DNA from: Synechococcus sp. AG-683-C23
Lineage (GTDB): Bacteria > Cyanobacteriota > Cyanobacteriia > PCC-6307 > Cyanobiaceae
DNA length: 50,883 bases
Reading direction: 5' to 3'
Assembly (NCBI GenBank): GCA_003208835.1
Contig: QCVD01000016.1
Location: 1 to 50,883 of the forward strand
The notes below the pieces were generated by a model. That model was not told where the DNA came from. It made no database searches and was given only the letters and a program-made list of their open reading frames with translations. Position numbers and translations under genes: made by a program. Within the stretch, counting starts at the first letter, position 1. The number at the start of each line of letters is the position of its first letter. Below are positions 47,509 to 50,744 of this stretch, one piece after another.

Positions 47509-48249
47509 TCAGCCAGCTTTGACAACCTGCCAAACGAAGGCCGGTAAAGCCAACATGCGTCTCCAGCGGCTTGGTTCTTGAACCAGTCGATAAAGCCACT
47601 CGATTTGCATCCGACACATCCAGTTGGCTGCTCTTTTTTTGGCACCAGCCCATACATCAAAGCTTCCGCCGACTCCCATCCACAACCCGGATTGTCCTTG
47701 TTGGACACGTTGTGACCAGGTTTCTTGGCGAGGAATCCCCAGCGCAATTAAGACCAAATCGGGTTGAAGTGTTTTGAGTTCTGATTCCAAGCCAGGCCAA
47801 GCCTCATCCGATTGATAGCCATCGACTGTGAGAACCAGGTTGAGTCCGGGAAGCTGCTGAGGCAGGGTTGTCCTTAATGAATCCATCACGGTCGGGGATG
47901 CCCCGATCAAGGCAACGCTCCAGTCGTGGGAGGCCGCATAGGTCAACAGGGTCCACGCCAGTTCGATCCCTGCACTCTTGACCACACGCACCCCTTGTTT
48001 GGAGAGAGCCCAAACGACGCCTGCCCCATCAGGAATCACGAGTTGAGCGGTCTGGATTGCAGCACCAAGCTGGTCATCCTCCCGTGCTGCCATCGTCATC
48101 TCCGCATTGAGCGTGACAATGCGGCCACCTCCATTGGCATGGAGGCCCAACGCAGTAGCTAGTACATCGCGGCAAGCATCCACTGGCACACCAAGAACAT
48201 GGCAGCGCCGGTAGTCATAAGGACTTGTCGTGACTGAATCCATGGTCAT
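47509..48249 (-). CDS. WecB/TagA/CpsF-family glycosyltransferase
   Basis: A 246-residue GT26-type glycosyltransferase, likely adding N-acetylmannosaminuronic acid or a related sugar to a lipid-linked intermediate of surface polysaccharide. Signatures: LNAEMTMAARED, the IPDGAGVVW block (PDG 73-75), VALIGASPTVMD, LIALGIPRQE (171-176) and MGVGGSFDVWAG. No membrane segment; peripheral at the membrane. ATG 48249 is 9 bases from the start codon of the divergent broken gene. Confidence 0.88.
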   Translation of the reverse strand: MTMDSVTTSPYDYRRCHVLGVPVDACRDVLATALGLHANGGGRIVTLNAEMTMAAREDDQLGAAIQTAQLVIPDGAGVVWALSKQGVRVVKSAGIELAWTLLTYAASHDWSVALIGASPTVMDSLRTTLPQQLPGLNLVLTVDGYQSDEAWPGLESELKTLQPDLVLIALGIPRQETWSQRVQQGQSGLWMGVGGSFDVWAGAKKRAANWMCRMQIEWLYRLVQEPSRWRRMLALPAFVWQVVKAG

Positions 48250-48258
48250 CCGTCCGCG

Positions 48259-49714
48259 ATGGAGAATTTAAGGGTGGTGATCGAGCCAGACATGGTTGTG
48301 TCCAAGACGGAACTCCCACAAGACGACAAGTGTCGTGATGACGTTCTTGAACGACTTGATCGAGCCATCGAGAGGGTGGTCCTTGGACGTCAGGATCCCA
48401 TTAGTGGCTTACTACCTGCCAGCACAGCGCACACGATTCATGGCAACTACGGAGATGCCTGGGTTCGCGACTGTGTTTATTCCATCCAATGCGTCTGGGG
48501 GCTCACCCTGGCCCATCGTCGGCGTGATGGGAACAGCAGCCCCAGAGCCTGGGAATTGGAGCAACGCGTGGTTGCGCTCATGCGCGGCCTGTTGCGCTCC
48601 ATGCTGCGCCAAGCGAACAAAGTTGAACGCTTTAAAAACAGTCTTGATCCGCTGGATGCACTTCATGCGAAATACGACGGAAGCTCGGGGGACCCCGTCG
48701 TTGCAGACCACGCTTGGGGTCACCTTCAGCTTGATGCCACTTCATTATTTCTTCTCCAGATTGGTCAGCTAACTCGAGGCGGATGTGCCGTGATTCGGAG
48801 TCGGGACGAAGCGGACTTCATCCAAAATTTGATCCACTACATCGCTAGGGCTTACCGCATACCCGATTACGGAATCTGGGAACGGGGTGATAAAGGCAAC
48901 CATGGCTGTCCAGAGCGCAATGCCAGCTCGATTGGCATGGCCAACGCTGCTCGACGGCAGCCTCACCCTGCAGCTCGGGCAACTCCTGTTGCTGCTCACA
49001 TCCGAACTGGCAGGGGAACAAAGCCTGAGTCAGGACGAGGCTTTTGAGATCCTCTGCTGCGAACCTCCTCACAAGATTCGCAGCCGTCTTCGCGCTGTAC
49101 TCACCGATGTGGAGCACGCCAAAGCCGCTCTACAACGCACTGAGCAGCTGCATGTGAGCGGGCGTGTGCAATGGACCGTTCCCGATCCCCTGGAACGCAG
49201 TCCCGGCAACGGAGATTGGCTGCAACACAGAATTCGCCTTGGTTCACTCCAGAAAGTGCCGCGCGATTTCTATGCGGGGATCTGGTCCTTGTTGCAGCAC
49301 TGCCGCGGCCTCGTGATCGGAGACAAATTGGAACGCCGCAACCGACTGAATAGCCGTCTTGTCCTTGAAAAAACCCCAGGTGAACGTAATTTCGCAACCC
49401 TGGTCGACCATCTCTTGAGCCGAATCGAAGCCCCGGAATACCGGCAGTTGTGTTGTGAATGTTTGCTGTCGCTTATGGCCTTTGTTGAGACCAACACCGA
49501 TGTGCGCTTTGACGATGATCTTGCACTCGATGTGGTGATCGGCCATGCAGTGCGAGTTGGATGGCAACACACCCACCCATCGATGGAACTAAACGAGTAC
49601 CCGAAGCACAAAGCCCATGCGTGGGGGCAGTTCTACCTGGCATCTCCCGGAGATTGTCGGCGCTGGCAGGTGATTGCCCTCAGAGAGCTGGCCGAGCAAA
49701 ACCGCCTGGTGTGA
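48259..49714 (+). pseudogene. Phosphorylase-kinase-alpha/GH15-like gene, internally deleted and frameshifted
   Basis: Two parts of one protein family lie in different frames. Frame 1 from ATG 48259 gives about 230 residues homologous to the start of the GH15-like regulatory alpha/beta subunits of phosphorylase kinase: PISGLLPAS, GDAWVRDCVYSIQCVWGLTLAHRR, WGHLQLDATSLFLLQIGQL, PDYGIWERGDKGN and NASSIGM. Frame 2, ending 49714, gives the C-terminal part: LLDGSLTLQLGQLLLLLTSELAG, a KVPRDFYAGIWSLLQHCRGL block and EAPEYRQLCCECLLSLMAFVETNTD. The several hundred middle residues of the family are missing. The join falls at 48929-48944, a 16-nt stretch that fits both frames. Short free-standing products are possible but would lack the middle of the (alpha/alpha)6 fold. 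Confidence 0.85.
48929..48944 (+). repeat. Deletion-junction microhomology
   Basis: CGATTGGCATGGCCAA. In frame 1 it gives S-I-G-M-A-(K/N), the expected continuation of the N-terminal part; in frame 2 it gives R-L-A-W-P-T, the expected entry to the C-terminal part. This is what remains if recombination between two short direct copies removed the middle of the gene. Confidence 0.6.
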
Positions 49715-49736: not shown

Positions 49737-50744
49737 TTAAATCGGTGCACTGAGCGGATGGCCAGAGTCGGGATGTTCAACAGCCTGCTCGATCAAATCA
49801 GCCAGTTTGAGAGCTCTTGAAGCCTGGAGACCATCCACCGCAGGCGTCTCCCGCCCTCGCACGCATTGAAGGAAATGTTCCAGCTCGGCATACAAGGGTT
49901 CGATTGAGGTGGTGCTGACCTCCTCAATGAATCCATCGTTTCGATAAAGCAGCTCTCCGTGATCGGCAGACACCCACTGATGGGCACGACGGTGAATATG
50001 CAGGGTGTGATTGAGGAAATCCGTTTCGACCAAGCTGGAACGGCAATGCGCACTCAGGCTGCGAATTTTGCGATGGCTCATCTTGCTTGCCGTCAGGCTT
50101 GCCACAACCCCGTTCTCAAAACCAAGCGTGGCATTCACGTAATCGATGGGGCCGTCTGCGCTACGCCCTCCAGCAGCCGCTAATCGCACCACCGGGGCTC
50201 GGGCCAGCTCCAAGACCAAATCGATGTCGTGGATCATTAAATCCAGCACCACCGACACATCGTTCGCCCGATCGGAGTGGGGGCTATGACGACGGCCTTC
50301 CAACACCACGACCTCTTCATTCGCGACCACCTTGATGAGTTCTCGAAAAGCAGGATTAAACCGTTCGATATGCCCCACCTGGAGGAGGCGATGGGCCTGA
50401 TGGGCCGCGTTGATTAGAGCTGTGGCTTCGTCTTGGCTGGCGGCGATCGGTTTTTCGATCAAAACGTGCACCCCAGCTTGAAGACAGGCCAAACCGACCG
50501 GGTGATGCAGCATCGTCGGAACTGCGATGCAGACCGCTTCAACCTCAGACAACATCTTGCGGTAGTCCGCAAACCATCGGCAATCGAATTGTTCGGTGGC
50601 CAGGTGGCCGCGCTCAGGGTCTGGATCGGCCACGCCAATGAGATCACCGTCGCGAAGAAGGCTTAAGACCCTGGCGTGATGCCAGCCCATGTTGCCAATG
50701 CCGATCACCCCGACCTTTACCGGAACGATGGGGTCGGCAGACAT
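49737..50744 (-). CDS. Gfo/Idh/MocA-family NAD(P)-dependent oxidoreductase
   Basis: A 335-residue sugar/polyol-type dehydrogenase. The N-terminal Rossmann fold has GIGNMG (15-20) and the EKP motif at 97-99 with the catalytic-lysine region; the C-terminal domain has VLDLMIHDIDLVLEL with the conserved His. Members act on sugars, inositols or nucleotide sugars; the substrate is not determined. It is convergent with the broken gene (22 bases apart). Confidence 0.9.
   Translation of the reverse strand: MSADPIVPVKVGVIGIGNMGWHHARVLSLLRDGDLIGVADPDPERGHLATEQFDCRWFADYRKMLSEVEAVCIAVPTMLHHPVGLACLQAGVHVLIEKPIAASQDEATALINAAHQAHRLLQVGHIERFNPAFRELIKVVANEEVVVLEGRRHSPHSDRANDVSVVLDLMIHDIDLVLELARAPVVRLAAAGGRSADGPIDYVNATLGFENGVVASLTASKMSHRKIRSLSAHCRSSLVETDFLNHTLHIHRRAHQWVSADHGELLYRNDGFIEEVSTTSIEPLYAELEHFLQCVRGRETPAVDGLQASRALKLADLIEQAVEHPDSGHPLSAPI

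Follow-up and report, generated by a model that had tools for sequence, protein, structure and literature searches.

A gene broken near one end of a contig in the draft genome of Synechococcus sp. AG-683-C23 probably owes its break to a chimera formed by multiple displacement amplification (MDA) and not to a true loss. By its sequence, this gene is a cyanobacterial relative of animal phosphorylase kinase (PhK) alpha/beta. The weighting of the two readings is our own judgement, and the artefact is favoured over a genuine deletion, not proved. It should be noted that joints which break genes close to the ends of contigs can mimic gene loss in draft genomes of probable single-cell origin, and that companion inversions within one assembly expose such artefact joints. 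If the deletion were true, it would add to the losses of a gene that is absent from many picocyanobacteria.

Structure of the broken gene

The draft genome (G000) comprises 1,914,326 bases in 81 contigs and is 77.46% complete and 0.04% contaminated. The window, that is, the whole stretch of DNA analysed here, is its entire contig C16 (50,883 bp). Both ends of one PhK alpha/beta-like gene (GH15 plus KPBB_C) are located at 48259-49714 of the window, in different frames. The gene parts and their neighbours are as follows:

47509..48249, minus strand: left neighbour, WecG/TagA/CpsF-family glycosyltransferase (PF03808)
48259..48944, plus strand: N-terminal part of the PhK-like gene (GH15 start), frame 1 (PF00723; 98% identity to G004)
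48940..48944, plus strand: junction, GCCAA, the sole exact match of both parent sites in the alignment to G004, G015 and G006
48945..49714, plus strand: C-terminal part (KPBB_C), frame 2 (PF19292; 98% identity to G004)
49737..50744, minus strand: right neighbour, Gfo/Idh/MocA-type oxidoreductase (PF01408)

The initial annotation had recognized N-terminal blocks in frame 1 and C-terminal blocks in frame 2 of one family, which agreed with our profile searches: the frame-1 open reading frame (ORF; 48259-49047) matched PF00723 (GH15) with an E value of 7e-38, and the frame-2 ORF (48887-49714) matched PF19292 (KPBB_C) with an E value of 4.1e-87 over profile positions 2-234 of 238. The C-terminal half thus carries the KPBB_C domain of a PhK alpha/beta-like gene. 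The GH15 profile was covered at positions 9-190 of 427 in the broken copy, compared with 9-405 in the intact ortholog. Beyond the junction, frame 1 continues out of register to 49047, and the mechanical C-terminal ORF begins at 48887. No NCBIfam match above the cut-offs was obtained for the intact protein or for either half. Possible start codons are the ATG at 48259 and the next ATG at 48292; the latter would be the likelier start, because a relative (G002) has a stop codon between the place matching 48259 and the next ATG. We also considered G002 as another broken copy on account of its in-frame TGA and rejected it, as the TGA precedes the likely start and the remainder of the gene is in one frame.

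The ortholog is a single ORF of 1060 aa, counted from the first ATG, in G004 (taken as the MAG Synechococcus sp. BS30m-G31, contig JADHRU010000022.1), G015 and G006. At the sequence level, the G004 protein matched both phosphorylase b kinase alpha (8jfk_M; E value 1.2e-163) and phosphorylase b kinase beta (8jfk_B; E value 1.6e-124). Alignment revealed that the window is collinear with all three genomes apart from a single jump, on either side of which its identity to G004 is 98.0% and 96.2%. The net loss against each of them is 1,760 bp, which bears out the internal loss proposed initially. This corresponds to 586 codons plus 2 nt, and therefore the frame shifts. In its ends, which are about 98% identical to those of G004, and in its collinear surroundings, the G000 copy resembles a gene for an intact cyanobacterial PhK alpha/beta-like protein (PF00723 plus PF19292); however, it is without more than half of its length, and no continuous frame runs across both domains. 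The missing middle was not found elsewhere in the G000 assembly by a search that was positive in the controls G004, G015 and G006, and the assembly is therefore without an intact copy. With its two frames and 1,760 bp missing, the G000 gene is a broken copy and not a working member of the family.

Sequence at the junction

Comparison with the two parent sites of G004 showed that the window follows the left site through GGCATGGCCAA and the right site from GCCAA onward, one substitution aside. The two sites agree exactly at GCCAA (48940-48944) alone, and the wider match is imperfect. A 16-nt microhomology (48929-48944) had been proposed at the boundary, but the exact common sequence is these 5 nt, and the 16-mer is merely the left parent sequence. 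It occurs once in the window, and the intact G004 gene contains no exact direct repeat of at least 11 nt at a spacing of at least 300 nt. Recombination between 16-nt repeats therefore found no support, the exact match of the parent sites being 5 nt. Under a simple independence model, the chance of a 5-nt match at a random joint is about 0.005; 5-nt repeats are frequent in the gene (5,535 pairs). The match fits short-match joining, which could have occurred in the cell or in the amplification reaction.

Joints elsewhere in the assembly

We examined 81 stretches of G000 (630,883 of 1,914,326 bases) against the first 2.0 of the 2.285 Mb of the complete genome G015. The sample, drawn from C1-C41, consisted of the whole of C16, 20 kb from the start and 3 kb from the end of each of the other contigs among C1-C21 (20 in number), and 3 kb from either end of C22-C41. 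In total, 430,497 bases were aligned, and an alignment was present no more than 2 kb from 69 of the 82 contig ends. As G015 is mostly about 80-90% identical to G000 at the DNA level, overlap lengths at inverted joints are approximate. A clean joint was defined by a query gap between -40 and 15. Strand switches in C5, C8 (twice) and C13 were left out of the count, since they lie in variable regions with 0.9-10.3 kb unaligned between the flanks. Nine clean joints were identified, four inverted and five direct:

Inverted, C10 start (L161 473-480): breaks argH; partners 1,190 bp apart
Inverted, C19 end (L289, last 3 kb, 1159-1167): sulfate permease start and trpA start; partners 3,653 bp apart; 9-nt alignment overlap
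Inverted, C38 start (L308 1657-1660): recG and the next ORF; partners 1,759 bp apart
Inverted, C39 start (L309 244-248): 1,142-aa ORF with a below-cut-off YhdP match, which we take to be of AsmA/TamB type; partners 818 bp apart
Direct, C16: PhK-like gene; 1,931 bp from the contig end; 1,760 bp missing
Direct, C24 end: 18.4 kb jump; 129 bp from the contig end
Direct, C13: 343 kb jump; variable region
Direct deletion, C14 (L165 about 14600): 378 bp relative to G015; interior; gene without a Pfam family
Direct deletion, C17 (L167 about 5790): 541 bp relative to G015; interior; M23-peptidase gene

The partners of the four inverted joints were 818-3,653 bp apart, with alignment overlaps of 4-9 nt, and the distance from joint to contig end was 248-1,833 bp. 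The outermost 2 kb at the contig ends make up about 26% of the sampled sequence (82 x 2 kb of 631 kb), the sample being end-rich by choice, and the chance that all four inverted joints would fall there is about 0.005. For comparison, a random position on C16 would be as close to an end as the PhK-like joint (1,931 bp) with a chance of about 8%. A free-living autotroph would be unlikely to lose argH and trpA. The argH of G000 is present as two opposite-facing pieces (95% identity) with residues about 112-347 missing, and no second close argH was found in this assembly, where the two other matches (24-26% identical) represent other lyases or chance. A second trpA start was also not found in G000, the first 70 TrpA residues occurring once, at the C19 joint. 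With regard to the two interior deletions, the C14 gene has a stop codon a few codons past its start, as read from the letters, and the C17 M23-peptidase gene has a frameshift and low similarity near the break; both are probably real, older pseudogenes.

Conservation in relatives and selection on the two halves

A search of 59 genomes (G000 and 58 others) identified the N-terminal part in 46 and the C-terminal part in 45, G000 being included in both counts and G008, which has a stub only, in the former. Both parts were present in 44 other genomes, among which G037 alone has them on different contigs. The remaining 43 relatives have the two ends on a single contig and, without exception, contain the middle, with a gap of 1755 to 1851 nt between the two matches. 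The gap is a multiple of three in 42 of these, the remaining one (G016) having a single frameshift. Neither the short two-frame form nor the G000 joint was observed in any of the 43 (0/43), and among these independent samples the joint did not recur. In G016, taken as Synechococcus sp. AG-679-D13, the frameshift of the orthologous gene, whether real or an error, lies at about 6932-6936 of L071.

The direction of nucleotide changes was assigned with G015 and G006, both halves being pooled. Seven synonymous and two nonsynonymous changes were placed on the G000 branch and five and two on the G004 branch, with 11 and 2 unresolved. The pairwise dN/dS between G000 and G004 was 0.077 for the PhK-like halves, compared with 0.088 and 0.053 for the neighbours WecG/TagA and Tgt, respectively. 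Comparisons of the Gfo/Idh gene other than G000 versus G006, and those of Tgt with G006, were left out (small gaps, out of register), as were polarised counts for the Gfo/Idh and Tgt genes. No further stop codon or frameshift was found in the two halves, and relaxed selection was not seen. Thus, either the break arose very recently or it is an artefact. These signs of a pseudogene would likewise be absent from a very young one.

Origin of the joint

The available text of Lasken and Stockwell (2007; PMC1855051) describes 475 MDA chimeras, of which 406 were inverted (337 of those <10 kb); most had a match of 2-21 nt at the joint, and direct chimeras <10 kb were rare (11/475). Portions of two further reports give an overlap peak of 6 nt, mostly 5-8, for inverted chimeras (PMC4595205) and a frequency of one chimera in 13-27 kb of product from single-cell MDA (PMC2668756). 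Because the inverted joints of G000 match the pattern of phi29 MDA, this genome appears to be a single amplified genome obtained by that method. Its completeness (77.5%), contamination (0.04%) and number of contigs (81) fit a single-cell genome, not uniquely.

Like the chimeras described in that text (PMC1855051), the PhK-like joint has a short exact match (GCCAA, 5 nt, within the range of 2-21 nt) and partners less than 10 kb apart (1,760 bp), and it is accompanied by inverted joints elsewhere in the assembly. Unlike most of them, it is direct, a class with 11 of 475 members under 10 kb, whereas the four other joints of G000 have the inverted orientation that is usual, not obligatory, for MDA. 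Given four inverted joints, the expected number of direct joints is 0.13 by the ratio in the available part of PMC1855051 and 0.34 by the newly detected chimeras of one sample in the available part of PMC6515389, and only some of these would be deletions. The PhK-like joint and the four inverted joints are alike in their short match, short distance, position near a contig end and lack of decay, from which we infer that they probably share the same origin. The DNA of one cell would have been amplified by phi29 MDA, and a displaced 3' end would have primed at the 5-nt match GCCAA, 1.76 kb off on the same strand. The resulting direct chimera would then have been taken into the contig sequence near the contig end, a place presumably covered by few correct reads, and the gene in the cell itself would have been the ordinary intact one, about 1,060-1,078 codons long.

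The main alternative, to which we give roughly half the weight of an MDA chimera, is a genuine, very recent microhomology-mediated deletion at GCCAA, by which 1,760 bp would have been lost and the frame shifted, so that a dispensable gene would have become a new pseudogene. Dispensability is suggested by G008 (98% complete), which has only a stop-riddled stub, and by the presence of KPBB_C in 166 of 300 family genomes, or 128 of the 196 of good quality. Real direct deletions also seem to be present in G000 (378 bp in C14 and 541 bp in C17), the missing middle occurs nowhere else in the assembly, and the direct orientation of the joint is that of the rare class in the available text of PMC1855051. 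In addition, a single internal deletion with a frameshift in a dispensable gene resembles an ordinary bacterial pseudogene produced by short-match deletion. However, the G000 copy differs from such pseudogenes in that it has no further decay, whereas the C14 and C17 cases have further lesions, and in that its joint is present in no relative (0/43); furthermore, like the four inverted joints, the joint is close to a contig end (1.93 kb). A real deletion would need to be of very recent date, confined to G000 and situated near the contig end by mere chance (about 8%), and an MDA chimera is favoured. The initial suggestion that this lineage lost the gene is thus possible, but only for a very recent event, considering the lack of decay and the 7:2 ratio of changes.

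An assembly error without amplification, either a short-overlap mis-join of contig ends or a mixture of strains, some having the middle and others not, appears very improbable. It would agree with the closeness of the joint to the contig end, but the intact G004 gene has no repeat of at least 11 nt at 300 nt or more, and MDA better explains the inverted joints elsewhere. Repeat collapse was rejected on the same ground, the absence of such a repeat. In this respect, the proposal that the assembly had collapsed a repeat was close in spirit, but an MDA chimera fits better because four inverted short-overlap joints occur near contig ends in the same assembly. Finally, although both frames are open and undecayed, it is scarcely credible that the gene truly lost its middle and that its halves would be translated and kept as two useful short proteins, a split PhK-like protein in wild Synechococcus as the initial annotation had allowed, since none of the 43 relatives has this form and the GH15 domain is interrupted at position 190 of the 427 in its profile.

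Loss and dispensability of the gene

The PhK-like gene is dispensable elsewhere, as indicated by the decayed stub in G008. A relative of the gene is present in the laboratory strain Synechococcus WH7803. Only gene fragments are left in the G008 genome (2 contigs), the best of which has stop codons (E value 2.8e-7), and this is an independent loss. The stub (L066 7789-8204) adjoins the same WecG/TagA-like gene as in G000. We also considered joint loss with glycogen phosphorylase; this was rejected, as the enzyme was found in 10 of the 11 searched genomes without KPBB_C, some of which are incomplete. Therefore, glycogen phosphorylase does not appear to depend on the PhK-like protein as an obligatory partner. 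A literature search for phosphorylase kinase with cyanobacteria, Synechococcus or GH15 found no study of the function of this protein; a 'glycogen phosphorylase kinase' is named in the abstract of a proteomics study of WH8102 (PMC6716455). In addition, the G004 MAG has a second N-terminal copy that is 71% identical to that of the window and is cut by a contig end (L065, end of contig C70, 12,015 bp; L082), possibly contamination from another Synechococcus.
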